Origin: a virus
DNA: 24,490 nucleotides
IMG/VR virus record: IMGVR_UViG_3300006330_000001
Coordinates: 1-24,490 of that record
Strand: one strand, 5' to 3'
Made by a program: the position numbers and the translations under genes. Below, piece by piece: positions 1,148 through 23,262 of this stretch (position 1 is the first letter of the stretch; each line of letters starts with the position of its first letter). The notes under the pieces are model-generated. The model worked only from the letters and a program-made list of their open reading frames with translations, did not search any database and was not told the origin of the DNA.

Positions 1148-1861
1148 TCACTTCGCCACCTCGCCGGTCTTCACCCGCAGCCACTCGATGAAATCGCCGA
1201 CCGTCTTGCCCTCGAGGATCGACGGGTTCGCGGCGGTTGCTGCGGCGCCAGCGATCAGGTCGGCGCGCTCCCCTTTGCCGGCCGCCAGGATCGATCCGGC
1301 CGTGACGCGGCCAAGGAAGTGGGCGGCATAGAGGGTCGCCCGGTTGATCGGCACGCCGCGCGACCGCAAATAGGCGGCGTTCTTGGCAGTGAAGGTCCGG
1401 GCGCGCGCCAGCTGCTCTTCCGGCGACGGCTTCAGTCCCCCGAACGCCGGGCGCAGGGTCGGGCCCCATGTGCCGCCTTCGCCGATCCAAGTCGAGCGGA
1501 TGAACTGATACAGACCCGACGCGCTGGACGACGGTGCCTGCGCATAAGGCTTGTCGCTGCTCTCGATCTTCGACAGCATAGGCCAGTAGCTATCCGGGAT
1601 GCCCGCCGCGTCGATCTGGTCGACCACCGGCGGCTTGAGGCTGTCCAGCATGGCGATGGTATCGCGGCCGCACCAACCGTCACGCTTCAAGCCATACTTG
1701 CCCTGGAACAGGCGCACAAAGGTATCGTCATCGACAGGAAGGCGGCCGGGCGCTTTGACGCCCAGGTGCCCGAGCGTCGCCGCGCCGGCAATGCCGTCTT
1801 CCTTGAGGCCGAAGCGCCCCTGATACAGGCGCACGAAAGCATCATCAGAAATGATGGTCAT
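1148..1861 (-). CDS. endolysin, lytic transglycosylase/lysozyme-like
   Basis: 237 residues. Two similar repeats open the protein, at about 6-30 and 45-69 (FVRLYQGRFGLKEDGIAG and FVRLFQGKYGLKRDGWCG), each resembling a compact peptidoglycan-binding motif. A lysozyme-fold domain follows: candidate catalytic Glu100 in LSKIESSDKPYAQ, then SASGLYQFIRSTW at 113-125, the typical GLYQF signature of SLT-type transglycosylases, and LYAAHFLG at 177-184. It would cleave the glycan strands of the cell wall. No signal peptide is seen, so export would depend on the neighbouring holin. GAGGATCTT before the ATG provides a Shine-Dalgarno sequence. The holin-like gene lies 39 bases upstream. The fold call is firm; the exact cleavage chemistry is not. 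Confidence 0.85.
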   Translation of the reverse strand: MTIISDDAFVRLYQGRFGLKEDGIAGAATLGHLGVKAPGRLPVDDDTFVRLFQGKYGLKRDGWCGRDTIAMLDSLKPPVVDQIDAAGIPDSYWPMLSKIESSDKPYAQAPSSSASGLYQFIRSTWIGEGGTWGPTLRPAFGGLKPSPEEQLARARTFTAKNAAYLRSRGVPINRATLYAAHFLGRVTAGSILAAGKGERADLIAGAAATAANPSILEGKTVGDFIEWLRVKTGEVAK

Positions 1862-1900: not shown

Positions 1901-2305
1901 TTATTCGTCGGAGTGGCCCGCCAGCCGCTTGGCGCTCAGTTCGGTCTGCACGGCGTTGCGCAGTTCGCCCTTGCTCTCCGTCACGTCCCTCGACAGGTCG
2001 CGGAGGGTGATCGCCTCCACCTGGCGCATGAAGCGTTCCGTATAGAGCTTGACCACTCGCTCCGCGCCAATGGTCGCGCCGGCCGAAACGAGCGCCGCCG
2101 CCTCGCCGCTGACGCCGAACTGCGTCACCAGCCAGTAAGCGATCAGCCCGACCATCGGCAGCAACAGGATGTCGGCCATCAGCAGCGACGGCCGCACCTT
2201 GATCCCCTTCTTGATCAGCAGCGCATATTTCGCCGCCAGCCCGAACGTCAGGCCGATCCATATCCAAGCATATTTGGCGAAAGCCGCCTCAATCCATGGC
2301 GACAT
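1901..2305 (-). CDS. putative holin
   Basis: 134 residues from ATG 2305, chosen because GGGAG lies about nine bases upstream; in-frame starts at 2332 and GTG 2383 are less likely. Hydrophobic segments fall at about residues 13-29 (YAWIWIGLTFGLAAKYA) and 43-62 (ADILLLPMVGLIAYWLVTQF), with a weaker one at about 65-82, and a charged C-terminal tail predicted helical (TLRDLSRDVTESKGELRNAV). Size, topology and position directly before the endolysin fit a holin, which would permeabilise the inner membrane at lysis. No named holin family is recognised with certainty. A short hairpin (1886-1900) follows the stop but lacks a U tract. Confidence 0.6.
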   Translation of the reverse strand: MSPWIEAAFAKYAWIWIGLTFGLAAKYALLIKKGIKVRPSLLMADILLLPMVGLIAYWLVTQFGVSGEAAALVSAGATIGAERVVKLYTERFMRQVEAITLRDLSRDVTESKGELRNAVQTELSAKRLAGHSDE

Positions 2306-2392
2306 CGCCGATGCTCCCTGTTGTGTATTCATGGCGGACGCGCCCCTGACGGTGCGGCGATTCGTCTCGACGCGGGCGACCACGCGATACCC

Positions 2393-4195
2393 CTAGATCA
2401 GTACCGCTTTGCCCGCTTGCGGCACCGCTGCGGCCATGCGCTCAATCTCTCGAATACGAGGATGAACGCCGTCTGTCGTGGCCGGCGAAAAGACCGCTGA
2501 GCCAGCAGCCGACACCGCCACATTGGTGCTGCGATCGAGCGTCACCAGCCAGTCACCGGGCTCGCCGCTATAATCGACGACCGCGGCCAATTGCGCTCCG
2601 TTTGCACCCCAGCGGAGGATTTCGCCGCGCGCGGGTTCGTCGACCACGCGGATTGTCGAGTAGCCGGCGGCCCCGTCCGTTCCAGCCTGTGCCGCCAGCG
2701 TCGTCGTCCAGGCTGCTGGCCATTTACCCTGCGTGGCAGAATAGGCAGGGCCGATCAGATCGACGAAGCCCTGGATCACACCGCCCATGAGCGAAGCCTT
2801 GTCCGCGTCGAGCAGATAGTAATTGCCGGTTTGCCAGACGCCGCCGTTGGCGTTGTAAGTCTGGCTGGCGACGGTCAGATAATTGTCGGTCGAGGCGGAG
2901 GTGCGAGGCGTGGTGCCAATCGCGATCACAGGCACGTTTGCATAGCGCGCGCGCAATCGGGTGATGAGGTCAAGCCAATCCGCTTTCATGGTCGGATAAT
3001 TGGCCTGATGGTCGTTAATGCTCATCTGGTCGATGACGCAGGTGAAAGGCCATTTGCCGTTGTTGAGCGCGATCAGTTCGTCCAGCACATCCCAGCGCTT
3101 GGTGGCGTTGGCGGCAAGTTCGCGACGTGATGCCGCCCCCGGCACGCCCATCAGGAAATGCGGGATGCGCCCGCGACCGCCCGGTGCGTCGAGCCAGCGT
3201 CGAAGCCAACCTTTGTTACGGCGCGCATCGGCCGACTGCGGCGAATCGTTCTGCCGCTCGCCGATACTGTCGTTGACGCCCAAGGTGACCGGCCGACCGT
3301 CCCAGCCTTTCGCCACCATCATGTCCGGCCCATAAAGTTCCGGCTGCGCCGTGCCGCCATAGGCGGTATCCAACGCGGCGGTGCTGGCCGTAGAAGTGCC
3401 GATCAGCGCAATCAGCGTTGCCGCATCGGCCGCGCCCCACACCCGTTCCCCGCGATGCTTCTCGATCTGGTAGACCGGGATTTGCTTTTCGCCCTCAGCC
3501 GTATGGTAGAGCGTGTAGATTGTCACCAGCGTCTCGGCTGCAATCGGCGTAGCCAGCGCAAGATCATCGGTCCATGCGCCATTCGCACCGCTGGCGATAG
3601 CGGTGCCATCTGCGCCACCGAATTTGAGCCGTGACAGGACGCCGCCCGCTTCGACCCAGACGCCGTCGATCGTCGTCGCGTTGCCCGGCAGCACCGTTTC
3701 CTGCGGGCTGCTGCCACTTGTCGTAACGCCAAAGCCGGAAAAGTGCAGGCGCAGATGGTTGATCGCATATTGTGGCGAACCAAAGACCAGCTTCGTCATG
3801 ACATAGTTGGTGCCTGCCGCCGCCGTCACGAGCGACCCTGACGGCTGCCTGGCTCCTGATGCCCAAAACATGTAGCGCGTGGGATCTCCACCCCCACCCC
3901 GACTTGTGCCAAGGGGATCTGCAAATGATGCGATCCCTAGCGACACGGCCTGCAGCGCCACTTCCAGTGGCACAGTCACCCGACGCAGTTTTTTCAATGC
4001 CCCACTCTCGATGTTGATCTCAACCGGGTCTGCGGAACTCACAGCGCCGCCGGCAGCCAAGGATCGAGCATCAAGCGGATCCGCTGCCGCCGCTGTCCCA
4101 GCGCGAACGCAGGCCGAGGCAATCGCCTCATCAACTTCAAGTCGCAACGGCACGGCATTGGGAAAGCGGGGGTCCCACAGCAAGATCTTCTTCAT
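2393..4195 (-). CDS. tail-associated SGNH/GDSL hydrolase
   Basis: 600 residues; AAGGA lies nine bases before the ATG. The N-terminal ~250 residues look structural, starting MKKILLWDPRFPNAVPLRLE, with beta-rich sequence after. From about 300 the SGNH hydrolase blocks appear in order: GVNDSIGE with candidate nucleophile Ser310, a glycine block MGVPGAA at about 349-355, DQMSINDHQ with Asn394, and TTDGVHPR with Asp575 and His578. Such enzymes remove acetyl or other ester groups; in phage tails they modify capsule or O-antigen during adsorption. About 100 residues between VDLIGPAYS and the Asp-His block hold a beta-rich insert. It is the last gene of the receptor-binding region, before the holin. 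Substrate is unknown; presence on the virion is inferred from position. Confidence 0.75.
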   Translation of the reverse strand: MKKILLWDPRFPNAVPLRLEVDEAIASACVRAGTAAAADPLDARSLAAGGAVSSADPVEINIESGALKKLRRVTVPLEVALQAVSLGIASFADPLGTSRGGGGDPTRYMFWASGARQPSGSLVTAAAGTNYVMTKLVFGSPQYAINHLRLHFSGFGVTTSGSSPQETVLPGNATTIDGVWVEAGGVLSRLKFGGADGTAIASGANGAWTDDLALATPIAAETLVTIYTLYHTAEGEKQIPVYQIEKHRGERVWGAADAATLIALIGTSTASTAALDTAYGGTAQPELYGPDMMVAKGWDGRPVTLGVNDSIGERQNDSPQSADARRNKGWLRRWLDAPGGRGRIPHFLMGVPGAASRRELAANATKRWDVLDELIALNNGKWPFTCVIDQMSINDHQANYPTMKADWLDLITRLRARYANVPVIAIGTTPRTSASTDNYLTVASQTYNANGGVWQTGNYYLLDADKASLMGGVIQGFVDLIGPAYSATQGKWPAAWTTTLAAQAGTDGAAGYSTIRVVDEPARGEILRWGANGAQLAAVVDYSGEPGDWLVTLDRSTNVAVSAAGSAVFSPATTDGVHPRIREIERMAAAVPQAGKAVLI

Positions 4196-4249
4196 TTCTG
4201 TTCGTCCTTAACGTCGATCGTGGGGTGGACTGTTCATATGAAAGCCCAT

Positions 4250-4495
4250 TCAGGCGGGGAGCCTGCTGTTGAAGCTACATTCGAAATCGGCATAGTTGCC
4301 GCCCATCGGAACCGTGCCGGTCCGAATGTCCTGCATCGCATCGCAGTCGGTGATCACATTCTTGTATATCCGACCGGACACCGGGCGACCGATGAAAAGG
4401 GCGACGCCGCATTCGCTGATCCGGTTGCTGTATACGAGGAAGTCGATACGTTCCGGGGTCGTTGTCGGGCTTCCGCCGGTGCCCGAAATGCTCAC
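4250..4495 (-). CDS. short beta-helix-like fragment
   Basis: 81 residues from a GTG start whose bases overlap the stop of the upstream gene (GTGA), so translation is probably coupled. The middle, FLVYSNRISECGVALFIG.. followed by ..GRIYKNVITDCDAMQDI, resembles two rungs of a right-handed parallel beta-helix of the pectate-lyase type, as found in phage depolymerases. At 81 residues it is far too short to be a complete beta-helix enzyme, which needs several hundred residues. It is either a remnant of a lost depolymerase domain or a small accessory protein. Family assignment is by appearance only. Confidence 0.55.
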   Translation of the reverse strand: MSISGTGGSPTTTPERIDFLVYSNRISECGVALFIGRPVSGRIYKNVITDCDAMQDIRTGTVPMGGNYADFECSFNSRLPA

Positions 4496-5322
4496 GCCAG
4501 CGCGATTTCGCCCGCGTAGGCGCTGACGATGTCTGCCAGCATCGCCTCGCGCAGAAGATCCTTGTCGGCCGTCACCATCTGTTCGTCGCAGATGAAGACT
4601 TCCGCCATGTCCCCCAGGAACATCTGCAGGCCCGCATTGCCGGCCGTGTTGAACTTGCCGCCGATCGCGACCGGACGCCCCGGCCCGGCCGGTTCCAGGA
4701 CGATGTTGGTTGCCCAGATGCGCGGCGTGACGGAGTTGACGCCGACCATCGGGGTCTTCGTCGCGGGGTCATAGCTGGCCCAGACCAGATAGCTGCCGCC
4801 AGCGACGAAGCCGACGCTGTTGGTCAGCTGGGGCGCGAGATTGCCATGCGACAGGCAGAGCGCGTTGTTCAGCATGTAGAACTGGACGTCGATGTCGCTC
4901 GTTTCCGCGCCGGAGGCGAAAAAGGTATAGGCCGTGCCCGTGAGGGCTACGCCTGCCCCCCACTTGATGACGGTGGCGAAGAAATAGCCCTTGGCGATAT
5001 CCAGCTCGAAGCCCTGGACGTGCAGCGGCAGCTCGCCCGCCGTCGAAGATCCCCCAGGGAACTTGATGACGGGCTTGGCGTCGCCGGCCATGCCGTTGCC
5101 GACCGTGATCGCGTCGTCGCTGGCATAGGCCATATGGCCCTTGCGACCCGCGACGCGCAGCACCTTGCCCGATCGGCGGACATTGCCGTCGGCAGGCTTG
5201 ATCCAGACTTTCAGCGGATCATAGGACAGCAGCCGGCGATCGCGCTCGGTCATTTCATAGGTAGGCCGCGCCGGCATGTTGGGCAGCGCGAAGGGGACGC
5301 GGGTGATAGCGGAAACGGCCAT
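4492..5322 (-). CDS. LamG/concanavalin-like tail protein
   Basis: 276 residues; GGAGG nine bases before the ATG gives a strong ribosome binding site. The sequence from about 95 to 265 is dominated by alternating beta strands with the pattern of a LamG/concanavalin A-like jelly roll: GYFFATVIKWGAGV, TFFASGAETSDIDVQFYML, SYLVWASYDPATKTPMVGVN and a closing ..MFLGDMAEVFICDEQM, which is typical of the last strands of such domains before a C-terminal helix. These domains bind glycans. The gene lies between the large fibre and the beta-helix fragment, so it is probably a surface-polysaccharide-binding tail component. No catalytic residues are apparent. Confidence 0.6.
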   Translation of the reverse strand: MAVSAITRVPFALPNMPARPTYEMTERDRRLLSYDPLKVWIKPADGNVRRSGKVLRVAGRKGHMAYASDDAITVGNGMAGDAKPVIKFPGGSSTAGELPLHVQGFELDIAKGYFFATVIKWGAGVALTGTAYTFFASGAETSDIDVQFYMLNNALCLSHGNLAPQLTNSVGFVAGGSYLVWASYDPATKTPMVGVNSVTPRIWATNIVLEPAGPGRPVAIGGKFNTAGNAGLQMFLGDMAEVFICDEQMVTADKDLLREAMLADIVSAYAGEIALA

Positions 5323-5325
5323 GAT

Positions 5326-8300
5326 TTAAGCCTCCTGAGTGGCAGCTAGGGTCTGGATGGTGGCGAAGACATCGAGCGGGCGCCCGTCGATCAGGCTGTA
5401 GCGGCGCCAGTCGGCGCGCTTGAACACGGTGCGCTGGCCGCCGTCGAAGCCCTGGGACGGCGGATTGGCGACGGCTTGATTACCATAGCCCATGCGCGCC
5501 GTCTCGACCGCGCCGGCGGGGATGGCGGCCGACATGGTGGCGACGATGCGCGTCGGGTTCGCCTGGTCGATCAGCGACGATGACACCGACACCGTCGTGC
5601 CTGCGCTGTTGTAGTGGGTGAGGCCGCCATTGGCAGCGGAGAGTATGATCGTCTCCGTGTCGCGGGCGACCGCATGGTTCATGGTGACGGTCAGCCTGGA
5701 GCCGGTCCACGTCGCCGACTCCATCATCAGCGCCGTCGTCTCGCCGCGGATCAGCCAGTCGGCCATCGCTTCGCCCGACAGCGCGCCCCGCCACGCTTCC
5801 TCCGGTGCCTTGTAGTGGATGCTGTCGGTATCGAAGTCGGTGAAGTAATGCGGCGGCAGGATGTGGATGTCCGCATTGTTGCGGGCCAGCTCCACCTGCG
5901 CCAGACCGGAATCTGCCGGCATGGCTTGGTTTCCTTTGGCCTGAATGGTCTGGTGATAGAAAAGCTGCGGCGCGATGGCCTGCCCGGTGCGCGACACGAT
6001 CGCGCTCTTCATGCCCGGCCACGCCGCCTCGACCTGCGCGCGGTAATTGGGGTTAACCCAGTCCGCCTCCCCCTGATCCATCAGGATATGGACCTCCAGC
6101 GCCAGCCCCTTGGCGTCGGCGATGGCCTTGGCGCTGTCGATCGATGCGAGCGCGTTCAGCCAGGGCTGCATCCAGTCGACGCCATCATGGATCAGCTTCG
6201 CGAAGGACAGCGATCCAAAGCCGAAGCTGGCGGACGCCAGATAGACCGAACCATCATAGCCGTTCGGGCCGTTGAGGTGCGTTGCCAGCGCGGTGACGAA
6301 GCTTTCGCGCGTCCAGCCGCCCCTCACGTCCGCGCCGACTTCCCCCAGGCCCTCGCGCATCGGCACGAGCGATGCGATGCGCGACGGGTCGATCGGGATG
6401 GTGCGGGACTCGACACCGCCGACGATCGCATCTCCATCCAAATTGCCCTGATAGGGGATGGTGCCGCCGTTCCAGGTCAGCAGCCGAGAGGGGAAGGCCG
6501 CGTTCCGGATCGGCATGGCCGTGCGGATGGTCTGCGGCCCGGTGACGCCGGCGGGATTGGTGCCATAGCTGCCGCCCGCGACGCTGTTCGATTGGCCGAT
6601 GACAAGGGCATAAACCATCTTCGTCGGCGCGGCCGTCGCCGGCTCGCTGACGTGCCAATGCGCATGACGCACCTTGTGCCGGTCGCGGATCGGGTCCGTG
6701 TCGTTGCAGCTGATCCGGACAAGCCCTGGCTTCGCGCCGTCGGGGCGCTGGATGACCTGATAACCCGTCACGCCATGCTGGCTGAAGGTCAGCTGGCGCT
6801 TCATGCGCGTGGGGCCGCTGGGGCTCTCCACCACCGCCCAAAGCTGCGGCACCTTGTTCTGGTCGCCCTGGATGGTGAGGCCGTCCAGCACGCGCGGGTG
6901 AAGGCGGATGCGCTGGCCCGGCTCGTAGCCGGCGAGCGGCTGTCCCACCTCGTCCCACTCGGTCACGCGCAGGAAGTCGAAGTCCGCCGTCGGCGGCGTG
7001 CCCAGCACCTCGCCATAGTCGGCGATCGTGCGGCGGTCGAACAGGTCGAAGGACAGGACGGGCTGTCCGCCCTGCGCGCGCACCAGGGGCATGCGTCCAT
7101 TGGCGACAATCCCTTCGCCGCCGTCCAGCTGCAGGTTGTGCAGCCTGACATGGCCGGTGACCGGATCGACGTAGAAGAAAGCGCCATTGTCGTCTTCGGC
7201 GAGGATCATCTTGCCATCCACGACATGCGCGCCTGCGACGGGCGGCGCACCAGCGCCGCGCGCGTCATACTGGCGCCGGGCCAGCGTCTCGGCCGACATG
7301 GCGGCGGTGCGGGCCTGCTGTTCGGCGGTAAGGCCGCTCTGCAACGCCTGCTCCTGCGCCGCGATCGCCGCCTGCCGCTCTGTGACTTCGGTCGACAATC
7401 CTTCGGCCAGGTCGCTCACTTCCTGGCCCAGCCCGCCGACATCGACACCGCCCAGGTCGGTGATGTCCTCGGGCGGCTCGATCGCGATCAGATCGGTCTG
7501 CTGACCGTTGCCATAGATGCGGACGAAGGGCAGGCCATAGACCGCGCTCGGCGGCACGACATAATCCAGATCGCCGGGCGCGCCATCCTTGCCGATCACG
7601 AAGCTGTAGGTCACCACGCCATCGGCGACGACAGGCGTCAGCACATCGCCCAGGCGCACATTGCTGACATTGTTCTTGTTCTGGTTGAGGTTCTGCCAGC
7701 GCAGCTCCACGCCGTTGTTCGCCGGGTCGGCCGGATCTGCCGCGCGCGCGATGCGATAAGTCAGGCGATAGGTGCGACCGGGATAGATCGGCACGGCGAT
7801 GCGCGGCGCGATGTCGACATAGCCCGCGACGGGATCGACATCCGCGCCCGCCAGACGCAGCGCAGCGCCATAGCCGGCCGCTGCGACCACGCTGCCGACG
7901 CTGACCGGCGCGCGGCCGAGCGGGTCGCCGGTGGTCGCGTTGGAGAAGAGCGCGCGGGCGTCGCCGGCACGCTCCGGTGCGCGGGGGATCAGCGCCTCGA
8001 CAGGGCTGACGCGCGCGTCCAGATCATCGGGCTGCACCGCGCTATCGGCCTTGGCGCCTTGCGCGCTGGTGGCGGTGTCATCCAGGGCATCTTGTAACCC
8101 GGTGACGCTGGCGATCGGCTGCGAGCCGGTATGGTTGGCCCGGTTCTTCAGATTGGCGTCCGTGTCGTTTGCCGTGGCGCCGGCCGCGATCCCCGACAGT
8201 TTCGTCCGCTCAGACGAAGTCATGCGCTTGAAGTCGGCGGCGTCCGCCAGTTGCTCGATCGATGCGCCCGGCTGGAGTGCGCTGTCGGCTTTACCGCCCT

Positions 8301-8742
8301 GTGTGCTGGTCGCCTTGCCCGCCAACGCGGCCGCCACGGCCGTGCTGATCGGCTTGTTGGCGTCGGAGGTATTGTCGACATTGCCCAGGCCGACGTCGCC
8401 CTTCGCCAGCGCCACATCGCCGGTCTTGCCCGCGACCTTCGTCACCGCATTGACCTGTGCGCCGGCGGCAATGCCGGCCAGCTTGTTGCGCTCGGCCGTG
8501 CTGATCCCCGCCGATGCCGGCGCGAAGTCTCCCACATTGGCGCCAGCTGCGCTGCCGAGGTCCGCCGCGTTCGCCTTCCCGGGAAGCGCCGTCTCGATCG
8601 CATCCAGCCGGCCGCTAAGCGCGCCCTCGGCGCCCTGCGCGCGAGAAGTCTCTGCTGCGAGCGCCGTCTTGTCCGCCTTCACCTCGAGCGGTTCGGCAAG
8701 CGCGGTTGTCACTACAAAGCTGCGAACATCGGAAAGCGGCAT
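5326..8742 (-). CDS. large tail fibre with SGNH esterase domain
   Basis: 1138 residues; GGAG eight bases before the ATG. The N-terminal 250 residues are a fibre shaft with repeated modules: TAERNKLAGIAAGAQVNAV and SSERTKLSGIAAGATANDT, TSTQGGKADSALQPG and TSAQGAKADSAVQPD, plus GDVGLGNVDNTSDANKPIS, a motif widespread in phage fibres. A middle region (about 260-700) is beta-rich. An SGNH/sialate-O-acetylesterase-like domain spans about 708-1000: IGQSNS with Ser718, DQGEAD at 889-894, and TDSIHY with Asp973 and His976. The C-terminal ~140 residues form a beta domain. The likely role is receptor binding with deacetylation of a host surface polysaccharide. The catalytic residues look intact. Substrate is unknown. 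Confidence 0.85.
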   Translation of the reverse strand: MPLSDVRSFVVTTALAEPLEVKADKTALAAETSRAQGAEGALSGRLDAIETALPGKANAADLGSAAGANVGDFAPASAGISTAERNKLAGIAAGAQVNAVTKVAGKTGDVALAKGDVGLGNVDNTSDANKPISTAVAAALAGKATSTQGGKADSALQPGASIEQLADAADFKRMTSSERTKLSGIAAGATANDTDANLKNRANHTGSQPIASVTGLQDALDDTATSAQGAKADSAVQPDDLDARVSPVEALIPRAPERAGDARALFSNATTGDPLGRAPVSVGSVVAAAGYGAALRLAGADVDPVAGYVDIAPRIAVPIYPGRTYRLTYRIARAADPADPANNGVELRWQNLNQNKNNVSNVRLGDVLTPVVADGVVTYSFVIGKDGAPGDLDYVVPPSAVYGLPFVRIYGNGQQTDLIAIEPPEDITDLGGVDVGGLGQEVSDLAEGLSTEVTERQAAIAAQEQALQSGLTAEQQARTAAMSAETLARRQYDARGAGAPPVAGAHVVDGKMILAEDDNGAFFYVDPVTGHVRLHNLQLDGGEGIVANGRMPLVRAQGGQPVLSFDLFDRRTIADYGEVLGTPPTADFDFLRVTEWDEVGQPLAGYEPGQRIRLHPRVLDGLTIQGDQNKVPQLWAVVESPSGPTRMKRQLTFSQHGVTGYQVIQRPDGAKPGLVRISCNDTDPIRDRHKVRHAHWHVSEPATAAPTKMVYALVIGQSNSVAGGSYGTNPAGVTGPQTIRTAMPIRNAAFPSRLLTWNGGTIPYQGNLDGDAIVGGVESRTIPIDPSRIASLVPMREGLGEVGADVRGGWTRESFVTALATHLNGPNGYDGSVYLASASFGFGSLSFAKLIHDGVDWMQPWLNALASIDSAKAIADAKGLALEVHILMDQGEADWVNPNYRAQVEAAWPGMKSAIVSRTGQAIAPQLFYHQTIQAKGNQAMPADSGLAQVELARNNADIHILPPHYFTDFDTDSIHYKAPEEAWRGALSGEAMADWLIRGETTALMMESATWTGSRLTVTMNHAVARDTETIILSAANGGLTHYNSAGTTVSVSSSLIDQANPTRIVATMSAAIPAGAVETARMGYGNQAVANPPSQGFDGGQRTVFKRADWRRYSLIDGRPLDVFATIQTLAATQEA

Positions 8743-20441: not shown

Positions 20442-21371
20442 TTAGATCCCATCCCGATAGCTGACCGCCTTGGGGCGATAGATTTCCGTCTGGCCGACGT
20501 TCATGATGCCGTCGACACGCCAAGACATGGACGAAATCGCGTGCGGCGGCAGGAAGGTGAAAGCGCCGGGCAGGAAGCCCTCCAGAACGCCAGGATTGCG
20601 CGCATAGGCAACGATGCGCTTCGTCCCGCCCGAGCCGGCGGTCTCGAGCTCGCGCGCCGGCAGAATGTTCAGCGGCTGCTTGGTGATGGCCGTGTAGGCG
20701 TTGTTCTCCATCAGATACTTCAGGGCCGTGCCGCCGTAATCGGGCATGTTCGTGCGGTTGGCCTTCAGGAACTTGCTGGTGGGCAACAGCAGCGTGTCGG
20801 CCAGTTCGGTTTCCTTGGTGTTGATGTAGACATCGGTGAGGGCCGCGTCGACGTCGCCCACCATTTCATCCGGGGTCGCCGTATCCCAATCACCCGATGG
20901 CGCAGACGCCTGCGGCACGGTTGCGTTGTTCAGCAGGCCGGTGAAGCCTTTCTCGGTCGACCCGGTCATGAACCGATCATAGACGAACTTCTCGGCGATC
21001 TTGCGGGCATCCGATGCATCACGGGTCGGCAGGTCCACGCCCATGCGCGAGGCGCGGTTGACCTCCTGAAGCGAAAGCTCATAGCCGCAGCCCGCCAGGA
21101 AGAAGTTGCTGACGCCCTGAGCCATCTGAGCCGACACGTTGGGGATGTCGAAGCCCTTGCCGGAGAGATATTCGGCACGGCCAGCGGGTCCGTTCAGCGA
21201 AGTGACGACCGTGCCGACATCCCACATATCGCCGTCCTCATTGGTCGGGATATAGGTGGCATAGTCGAACGCCGGATACTTCTCTTCGAAGACCGTGGCA
21301 TGGGTGCGATAGAGCGCGGGGCGGGCGAAGCCGATTGCCTGCTGCGCGTCGGTGAAAATCTGACCACTCAT
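20442..21371 (-). CDS. major capsid protein (DUF2184 family)
   Basis: 309 residues from ATG 21371, preceded by AAGGGGG at a suitable distance; a longer frame upstream is not used. YTATYIP-type beginning (EKYPAFDYATYIPTNEDG), then LSGKGFDIPNVSAQMAQGVS, GYELSLQEVNRASRMGVDLP, ARKIAEKFVYDRFMTGSTEK and GFTGLLNNATVPQ match the DUF2184 major capsid family (HK97 fold), including the N-arm strand region and the 'IGNP..GL.N.P' segment. It forms the icosahedral shell. It is downstream of the protease/scaffold and cement genes, the expected order. Confidence 0.88.
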   Translation of the reverse strand: MSGQIFTDAQQAIGFARPALYRTHATVFEEKYPAFDYATYIPTNEDGDMWDVGTVVTSLNGPAGRAEYLSGKGFDIPNVSAQMAQGVSNFFLAGCGYELSLQEVNRASRMGVDLPTRDASDARKIAEKFVYDRFMTGSTEKGFTGLLNNATVPQASAPSGDWDTATPDEMVGDVDAALTDVYINTKETELADTLLLPTSKFLKANRTNMPDYGGTALKYLMENNAYTAITKQPLNILPARELETAGSGGTKRIVAYARNPGVLEGFLPGAFTFLPPHAISSMSWRVDGIMNVGQTEIYRPKAVSYRDGI

Positions 21372-21385
21372 TGCTTCATTCCCCC

Positions 21386-21859
21386 TTAGCGCTTCACGAT
21401 GCGGCAGATGCCGTTCGTCACGGTTTCGTCCGCGACCCACCCGGTCGCGATGTGGGTTGCGTCGGCCGCCGTGGAGCCGATGCCGTCAGCCGCGCCCGCG
21501 CCCGTGCCGACCGTGATCGCCTGGCCGTCCGAAACTGCGCCCGTGACGTTCACATAGATCGCGCCACCGGTGAGGATGCCGGCGGTCGAATACTGCGGGT
21601 AGGTGTCGACGGCGCCCGTCACGACGGTCGGGACGATCCCGCGATCAGCGATGGCCCAGCCAAGGAAGGTGGCCAGCGTGCCAACGGTGGTAACGCAGCC
21701 ATGATCGCTCGCCCCGCGATAGAGCGGCGCGCCGAAAGCTGCGCCCGCAGCGGATTCGACCGTGCGGCTGATGCGGTTGGAGGTTTCGCCGTTGGCGACC
21801 ATGCCGGGATACCCCTTGGCATAGTCCTCGGCGTAAGTGCTTTGAATCGTGATAGCCAT
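21386..21859 (-). CDS. capsid cement/decoration protein
   Basis: 157 residues; AAGGAG eight bases before the ATG, overlapping the upstream stop region. MAITIQSTYAEDYAKGYPGM, ANGETSNRISRTVESAAGAA and a beta-rich C-terminus ..GAIYVNVTGAVSDGQAITVG.. fit the phage cement (Gp24-like) family, small proteins that occupy the outer surface of the capsid and stabilise it. It sits between protease and major capsid genes, as usual for this family. Confidence 0.8.
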   Translation of the reverse strand: MAITIQSTYAEDYAKGYPGMVANGETSNRISRTVESAAGAAFGAPLYRGASDHGCVTTVGTLATFLGWAIADRGIVPTVVTGAVDTYPQYSTAGILTGGAIYVNVTGAVSDGQAITVGTGAGAADGIGSTAADATHIATGWVADETVTNGICRIVKR

Positions 21860-21871
21860 TGATCGCGCTCC

Positions 21872-23230
21872 TTACGCTGCGGCCGAGGTGGCGGGGGTTT
21901 TCCATGCATTGCGGCGAGCTTCGCTTGCCTTGCGCTGAGCATCGGCGAAGGCAGTTTCGGCATCGCCGAACGTCTGCACGCCATCAGCCAGAGCGCGACG
22001 CAGCGGGTCAGCCGGCGCGGCGTCCTTCAGCATCGCGAACGACGAAGCGAACTGCGCATCCGTCCAGTCCTTGGCATTCGCGGCGGCATCGCCCAGGTGC
22101 TTCAGCACGGCGGCCTTGATGATGGCCGGCTCATCCATCGCATCGGTGACGGTGACGCCCAGCGCCTTGGCCTTGTCGACCACCGCGGCATAAGCCTTGG
22201 CGGCGTCGCGAAGCTGGGCCGGCGTCGGCTTGGCGTCGGTCAATTCCTTGACCTTGCTTTCGAGCGTCGCCCTGTCGGTGGTGAGGGTGGCGACCTGCGT
22301 TTCCAGCTTCGCGACCTTGTCGCTTGCCGCGTCGCGGGCGGTGATGAGGGTCTTGATCGTGGCCTCGGCCGTATCGGCGTTGGACACGTCGACGGTCAGC
22401 CCGTCGATCAACATGGTCTTCACAGGCTTCTCCTGTTCAAGGATGTGGAAGGGGTAAACGTCCATCTTCATGCCGGCCTCGCCGGACTTGGCGTCGCCGC
22501 CCCCAAGTTCGGCCAGCGCGTTCTTCATCTGCTCCATCATGAGCATCTGACTCTTCTCGCCCTCTTTGCCGGTAGTCGGGGCAGAGCCGTTCATGTGTTT
22601 CTCGTGGAGCGCTATGGCCTTCTTGAGCCATGCGGCGGCCTCTTTCGCTCCATCCTGCAACGCGATAGGCAACGCGTCGCAGATCGCGGCATCGCCGATG
22701 CGGCACGACGGACCGGCCCTGCCCCGGTCCACGATCGCGACGTGATTGCCAGTTATGGACTTCTGACGGGCAACGCACTTGGTGCCGTCTGCGGCAGCGA
22801 AGTCACCGAACTGGAGGTCGGCCGCGTAGCCGTTCGACAATTCACGCTTGCCACCATTCACGGCGGCGATGGCGCTGGCGTCGGTCAGCAGCAGGTCGAA
22901 CGCGAGATATTCGCCGTCGCGCATCGCGCCCATGACGACGCCGCGCGCATGATCGCGCCAGTTCGTGGAGTTGACCGCCTCGCGCGGGTGATTGTCGGTG
23001 ACGGGCTTGCCGATGAAGCTATGCGCGGATTTGCTGTCGAACACGGCACTGTCATCGCGCAGCACGTTGACCATGCCGGCATCGCGCAGGCCATGCTTGT
23101 TCTCGGGGTCGATTTCGCTGCCCAGATAGGCGTAGGTTCCGGTGCGAGCCGCCTTTGCCCTGACAGCGAGGTAGCCGTCAGCCGTGCGGCGGGGCGCGTC
23201 TAGGGTCAGGGCGTCGGAGAATAGCACCAT
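21872..23230 (-). CDS. DUF2213 prohead protease with scaffold domain
   Basis: 452 residues from ATG 23230; an upstream ATG at 23248 is also open, but the family-like start is MVLFSDALTLDAPRRTADGY, and neither has a Shine-Dalgarno sequence. The N-terminal ~190 residues carry DUF2213 signatures: SFIGKPVTDNHPRE, DHARGVVMGAMRDGEYLAFD and GGKRELSNGYAADLQF, a family regarded as phage maturation proteases. A helical, coiled-coil C-terminal part follows (..DKVAKLETQVATLTTDRATL..), the expected scaffold. It would shape the prohead and be cleaved on maturation. The CGTCCGTAGC motif lies 32 bases upstream. Confidence 0.85.
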   Translation of the reverse strand: MVLFSDALTLDAPRRTADGYLAVRAKAARTGTYAYLGSEIDPENKHGLRDAGMVNVLRDDSAVFDSKSAHSFIGKPVTDNHPREAVNSTNWRDHARGVVMGAMRDGEYLAFDLLLTDASAIAAVNGGKRELSNGYAADLQFGDFAAADGTKCVARQKSITGNHVAIVDRGRAGPSCRIGDAAICDALPIALQDGAKEAAAWLKKAIALHEKHMNGSAPTTGKEGEKSQMLMMEQMKNALAELGGGDAKSGEAGMKMDVYPFHILEQEKPVKTMLIDGLTVDVSNADTAEATIKTLITARDAASDKVAKLETQVATLTTDRATLESKVKELTDAKPTPAQLRDAAKAYAAVVDKAKALGVTVTDAMDEPAIIKAAVLKHLGDAAANAKDWTDAQFASSFAMLKDAAPADPLRRALADGVQTFGDAETAFADAQRKASEARRNAWKTPATSAAA

Positions 23231-23262
23231 GGGGCGGGTGTGCCGCATGGTGCGAGAGGGGT

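Follow-up and report, generated by a model that had tools for sequence, protein, structure and literature searches.

A virus record of IMG/VR (IMGVR_UViG_3300006330_000001), analysed over its whole length of 24,490 bases and referred to below as the window, encodes two esterases of the SGNH type that belong to unrelated families. One is a domain of an 1138-residue tail fibre and the other a 600-residue protein; between them lie the genes for a LamG-like protein of 276 residues and an 81-residue open reading frame. An earlier, sequence-only reading had treated the four as one receptor-binding cluster, and all of them are present on the minus strand at the positions given in Table 1. Its claim of two distinct enzymes with intact catalytic residues holds: the motifs differ (GQSN at residue 716, QGEAD at 890 and DSIH at 973 in the fibre; NDSIG at 308, SIND at 392 and DGVH at 575 in the 600-residue protein), key residues are invariant within each family, and a comparison of the two with hhalign yields a probability of 0.1. 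The occurrence of two esterases exceeds chance. The locus is rather likely mosaic in its receptor-binding parts, the phage being a siphophage with a Sphingobium-like host; it would comprise a swap of the spike and two unrelated deacylases.

The 600-residue esterase matches phrog_8480 (E 2.3e-82, residues 102-596 on profile positions 35-523 of 528), while its match to Pfam GDSL_2 is weak and under the cut-off. A tblastn search with this protein gave 70 phage records, all from Rhizobium, and an alignment-based scan of IMG/VR gave 93 places, of which 80 were retained. Ser310, Asn394 and His578 occur in all 36 aligned sequences, as do Arg107 and Arg248; Gly353 is found in 34/36, and an arginine located four to five residues after the catalytic serine is also conserved. 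The catalytic Asp is present in the window protein, but some of the aligned sequences have Ser or Glu in that column. As sequence and alignment searches of the PDB with both esterases returned only noise, a comparison of folds was needed. The AlphaFold2 model of the 600-residue protein, built from a 38-row alignment, has a predicted local distance difference test (pLDDT) score of 82 and a predicted template modelling score of 0.77. Its best structural match is PbeAcXE (Z 27.1, root-mean-square deviation (rmsd) 3.4 over 345 residues), which spans residues 104-600, followed by a polyvinyl alcohol esterase (Z 26.6), and the next fold group appears at Z 13. With the residues of blocks I, II, III and V in place and fold matches at Z 12-27, the protein falls within the SGNH superfamily; structure prediction, which the sequence-only reading had named as a check, returned the expected fold here.

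PbeAcXE is a glucuronoxylan acetyl esterase in which a domain resembling a carbohydrate-binding module (CBM) precedes the SGNH domain; its serine motif is GNSI, its catalytic Asp and His lie in DXLHP, and the domain interface binds the glucuronic acid that neighbours the acetylated xylose (PMC9105624). The two-domain layout of PbeAcXE and FjoAcXE-like esterases (PDB IDs: 7TOG, 7TOH, and 7TOJ) is common to the 600-residue protein, which contains NDSI in place of GNSI and DGVHP in place of DXLHP, at an identity of about 14% that is beyond the reach of sequence profiles. Arg139 and Arg193 of PbeAcXE bind the carboxylate of glucuronic acid. The same CBM-like and SGNH core, at 30-50% identity, constitutes the phrog_8480 'lysophospholipase L1-like esterases' of Rhizobium phages (e.g., RHEph01 gp54, RHph_TM30 gp328, and B1VFA_091); the window protein differs from them in its N-terminal anchor, which is shared with other sphingomonad-type phage proteins. 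Its closest relative is encoded in L015 (47% identity; tree support 98/95, long branches). That the esterase came recently from rhizobial phages was considered and is unsupported, the tree pairing the window with L015 on deep, long branches outside the main rhizobial clade. Among 298 genomes of the Sphingobium abikonense (G002) family, only one partial and weak place for a phrog_8480 enzyme was found, a soft absence given that the set holds no positive control.

The fibre combines a variable N-terminal part, whose repeats are common to tail proteins of Gordonia, Arthrobacter and Synechococcus, with a C-terminal module (about residues 470-1138) that is 70-82% identical in Sphingobium prophages, the N-termini there being different. 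The Ser of GQS, the Glu of QGE and the His of DxxH are invariant in 8/8 sequences of the fibre family, down to 20% identity. The window domain itself has no match to Pfam SASA (PF03629). Two relatives found with the fibre family profile score 25.0 (L133) and 24.7 bits (L132) against a cut-off of 24.8 (E 2e-5), and through these distant relatives the fibre domain is presumably a SASA-type esterase. In structure prediction, matches of the fibre module to SASA folds are suggestive only, and the model of the module is poor (mean pLDDT 39.5). This low-confidence model still ranks the tailspike of cyanopodophage Pan3 and the SASA-fold esterases 7kmm, 1zmb, 2apj, and SIAE (Z 7.4-8.5 for the latter four). 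The Pan3 tailspike (PDB ID: 9VYH) is the top match (E 3e-12, about 16% identity, Z 11.7), with an rmsd of 10 on the low-confidence model. The C-terminus of the fibre (about residues 1003-1111) resembles an S-layer domain at Z 9.4 over 82 residues, likewise in the model of pLDDT 39.5.

Pairing of the esterase gene with that of the LamG-like protein is robust. In every relative with readable flanks (L005, L006, L007, L095, and L097, and the distant L104, L105, L106, L132, and L133), the esterase gene adjoins one for a protein of 260-311 residues, which aligns with the window protein or weakly matches Laminin_G_3 (PF13385), the most distant neighbours being only loosely alignable; in L132 the neighbour is located on the opposite side. 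Members of this fibre-LamG cassette comprise L095-L098 and L005-L007 in addition to the same five distant loci. As the fibre module occurs both in a contractile-tailed prophage (L096, sheath phrog_23) and in siphovirus-type prophages (L097 and L006, with phrog_5616 or central-fibre-J tail proteins), it moves between tail types. Four Sphingobium genomes encode counterparts of the fibre module and the LamG protein at about 67-83% identity, which agrees with the sphingomonad host suggested earlier and points to a Sphingobium-like host for the phage. One contig of Sphingobium abikonense NBRC 16140 (G002:C3) carries two divergent cassettes about 86 kb apart (L096 and L105). In the cassette-bearing prophage of Sphingobium lactosutens (L097:12006-13579), the lysozyme gene is followed by genes for a 103-residue and then a 420-residue protein; the latter has a faint match to NodB-type polysaccharide deacetylases (E 0.18), the former resembles (E 6e-5) L338C gp169, encoded ahead of a phrog_8480 esterase in a Rhizobium phage.

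The 81-residue open reading frame, whose start overlaps the stop of the LamG gene (GTGA), aligns with residues about 782-852 of an 867-residue spike from L015 (33% identity over 72 residues, E 2e-5), a score reached by 0/1000 shuffles. The spike has weak matches to Beta_helix and NosD (E 0.003-0.005). Judged by this homology, the reading frame is what remains of the C-terminus of a lost spike, and not a working part of the cluster. The prophage L015 encodes the spike first, then a holin-like protein, the SGNH protein and an integrase-like reading frame; the record thus contains both the spike that matches the stub and the closest relative of the 600-residue esterase. In L006 and L095 the stub is absent, and a holin-like protein 82-83% identical to that of the window is encoded directly after the LamG gene. 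Apparently, an older right-handed beta-helix tailspike gave way to the fibre-LamG cassette, only its last 81 codons being left.

Residues 1-95 of the 600-residue esterase, starting with MKKILLWD, lie outside the phrog_8480 core and contain an internal repeat (3/1000 shuffles reach its score). This segment recurs before a different SGNH domain (L002), before Calx-beta and SGNH domains (L003) and before Calx-beta domains with a LamG-like end (L004), and scores strongly in two genomes of the Sphingobium family. Because it recurs before other C-terminal domains, it seems to serve sphingomonad phages as an exchangeable module for attachment, joined here to a catalytic core of the rhizobial-phage kind. 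Homology of the anchor with the small proteins that precede esterase genes in Rhizobium phages is unsupported, as in the best case (Y5A_067) 10/300 shuffles reach the score. The 806-residue protein of L004 (8001-10421) shows, by eye, Calx-beta-like repeats after the MKKILLWD anchor and a lectin-like domain (the LamG-like C-terminal end) in the place of an enzyme. The anchor-bearing phage L003 encodes (4273-6633) a 786-residue protein, probably of the tail and active in polysaccharide degradation, in which a GH5 cellulase domain is clear (PF00150, E 4e-33).

The 600-residue esterase is probably carried on the virion through this anchor. No signal peptide is evident in it by eye, which argues against simple secretion. 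The earlier proposal of one receptor-binding unit made of all four genes is not established: the fibre and the LamG protein form a unit of their own, while the 600-residue esterase differs in anchor and origin, and its relatives are located in head modules or at the ends of lysis cassettes.

Several points weigh against the proposed mosaic. The fibre model was built from only eight sequences and is poor, which leaves the fold of the fibre to transitive homology. The 276-residue protein has no match in a Pfam search, and its relatives L132, L104, and L105 match Laminin_G_3 below the cut-off (E 1e-4 to 0.02); it is LamG-like rather than a Laminin_G_3 member, which is the weaker assignment. Enzymatic activity and virion location are proposed from sequence and models. 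In lytic Rhizobium phages, portal, capsid and head-tail genes surround that of the esterase homologue, and a gene for a protein of about 84-107 residues often stands directly before it. In many rhizobial prophages, the lysis cassette ends with the esterase gene, whose start overlaps the stop codon of one for an Rz1-like lipoprotein. Placement in a head or packaging module is found in L009, L010, L011, L126, L127, L128, and L130, which raises the possibility that the enzyme of lytic Rhizobium phages is head-borne; in RHph_TM3_3_3 it directly follows the portal gene, and in RHph_TM30 genes for a beta-helix protein and another SGNH protein come before it. Overlap with the Rz1-like gene is found in L018-L046, L061, L071-L072, and L076-L084 (about 5400-6001). 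With relatives in both settings, gene position fixes no site of the 600-residue esterase on the virion and cannot separate a role in adsorption from one in release.

These placements bear on the strongest rival, in which the 600-residue esterase belongs to the lysis region as cargo and, late in infection, strips or otherwise alters surface polysaccharide, either to let progeny escape from slime and debris or to block re-adsorption. Its gene directly precedes those for the holin and endolysin, a homologue overlaps the Rz1-like stop in many rhizobial prophages, anchor or SGNH proteins follow lysis-type genes in L002, L003, and L015, and the close fibre-LamG phages L006 and L095 have the holin in the place of this esterase. 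Against this stand the lack of an evident signal peptide, the modular N-terminal domain typical of virion attachment and the location of the gene among head genes in lytic Rhizobium phages, and we consider late action at lysis unlikely, if deserving of attention. A lectin role for one of the two SGNH domains, the fold being kept and the activity lost, would suit the binding folds of the LamG-like partner and the CBM-like domain as well as the Ser or Glu found in the catalytic Asp column of part of the 600-residue family; it is improbable, however, given that the window protein retains each of Ser, Asn, Asp and His and that Ser, Glu and His of the fibre are invariant in 8/8 sequences. Least credible, and close to dismissed, is a lysophospholipase or thioesterase as named by PHROG: although E. 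coli TesA is among the matches at Z 12, it aligns over about 176 residues compared with Z 26-27 over about 345 residues for carbohydrate esterases of the same layout, and TesA, with its 178 residues, lacks an equivalent of the CBM-like domain.

All late genes of the window are on the minus strand, in the order head maturation protease, major head protein, major tail protein, tape measure, distal tail proteins, phrog_5616 tail protein, fibre region, holin-like gene and endolysin candidate, which is the gene order of a siphophage. An AAGGA-type ribosome site is located upstream of the 600-residue esterase gene; no promoter or terminator signal stands out. The head proteins (20442-23248) are related to those of RHph_TM3_3_3 and another record (L128 and L047), with 46% identity for the major capsid protein and 45-46% for the decoration protein, and both of these likewise encode a phrog_8480 esterase.

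Table 1. Features of the esterase locus and its downstream flank (window coordinates)
Feature	Position	Strand	Remark
Tail fibre, 1138 residues	5326..8742	-	C-terminal module (about 470-1138) conserved; stretch before it, to about residue 470, variable
Putative SASA-type esterase domain of the fibre, residues 708-1005	5728..6621	-	GQSN / QGEAD / DSIH; predicted nucleophile Ser718, His976
Possible Ig/CopC-like beta-sandwich of the fibre, residues about 1003-1111	5410..5736	-	Low confidence, structure match
LamG/ConA-like partner protein, 276 residues	4492..5322	-	Adjoins the esterase gene in relatives
C-terminal stub of an apparently displaced right-handed beta-helix tailspike, 81 residues	4250..4495	-	Match to L015 spike
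600-residue esterase, whole	2393..4195	-	phrog_8480 match
Putative N-terminal anchor module of the 600-residue esterase, residues 1-95	3911..4195	-	Two tandem repeats
CBM-like beta domain of the 600-residue esterase, residues about 104-300	3296..3886	-	Aligned with PbeAcXE CBM-like domain
SGNH catalytic domain of the 600-residue esterase, residues 301-600	2393..3295	-	Ser310, Asn394, Asp575, His578
Holin-like protein, directly downstream of the 600-residue esterase	1901..2383	-	phrog_6384, E 7e-5
Endolysin candidate	1148..1861	-	Two peptidoglycan-binding repeats and a transglycosylase-like domain

In the mosaic that we favour, the fibre with its SASA-type O-acyl esterase domain would work together with the LamG-like product of the next gene: the fibre might bind an acylated surface polysaccharide and remove ester groups without cutting the chain, bringing the virion to the cell surface. 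The 600-residue protein, a second and unrelated esterase of the phrog_8480 or PbeAcXE-like kind, would remove ester groups at a different position or act on a different polymer. The two-domain layout does not fix the substrate, which the sequence-only reading held to be unreadable from sequence, as the polyvinyl alcohol esterase scores nearly as high as PbeAcXE. An acylated exopolysaccharide containing glucuronic acid may be a reasonable first guess, because the PbeAcXE-type site binds glucuronic acid, which rhizobial exopolysaccharides contain together with O-acetyl groups (PMC7589315) and sphingans together with acetyl and glyceryl groups (PMC9104527). The Rhizobium transferase pair PssDE complements Sphingomonas SpsK, and the Glc-GlcA step is shared by rhizobial exopolysaccharides and sphingans (PMC7589315); a sphingan target, as proposed earlier, gains only indirect support, from the glucuronic acid in both polymers and its binding by PbeAcXE. 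A bolder and doubtful extension places the 600-residue enzyme in a family of exchangeable polysaccharide deacylases, which phages of Alphaproteobacteria would attach by small adaptors at a distance from the tail tip, perhaps to the head, and which would be specific for O-acyl groups adjacent to glucuronic acid, a motif common to rhizobial exopolysaccharides and sphingans. If true, this enzyme and the fibre esterase would make up a two-site deacylation machine.

The stub next to the cassette makes a swap of receptor-binding genes directly readable, and the locus provides enzymes for trial on acylated exopolysaccharides (rhizobial exopolysaccharides and sphingans), where control of acyl content would be useful. 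Phage esterases that remove ester groups from surface polysaccharides have only recently been recognised as a common alternative to depolymerases, and esterase activity is established for the SGNH tail fibres of Klebsiella prophages and phage G7C (PMC13123978). Tail-fibre deacetylases of this type and the phrog_8480 family are already known, as are neighbouring SGNH genes, for which RHph_TM30, with a beta-helix gene (gp326) and two adjacent SGNH genes (gp327 and gp328), constitutes a precedent. As far as the tools used here show, the two unrelated esterase families in a sphingomonad phage are new, as are the occurrence of the cassette of esterase fibre and LamG protein in phages of different tail types, the spike stub, and the anchor module to which interchangeable carbohydrate-active domains are fused. 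The window fibre is likened to G7C gp63.1 and the Klebsiella prophage SGNH fibres, which carry an esterase domain on the tail fibre and deacetylate a surface polysaccharide without cleavage; the window phage differs from them in its conserved LamG-like partner and its second esterase.

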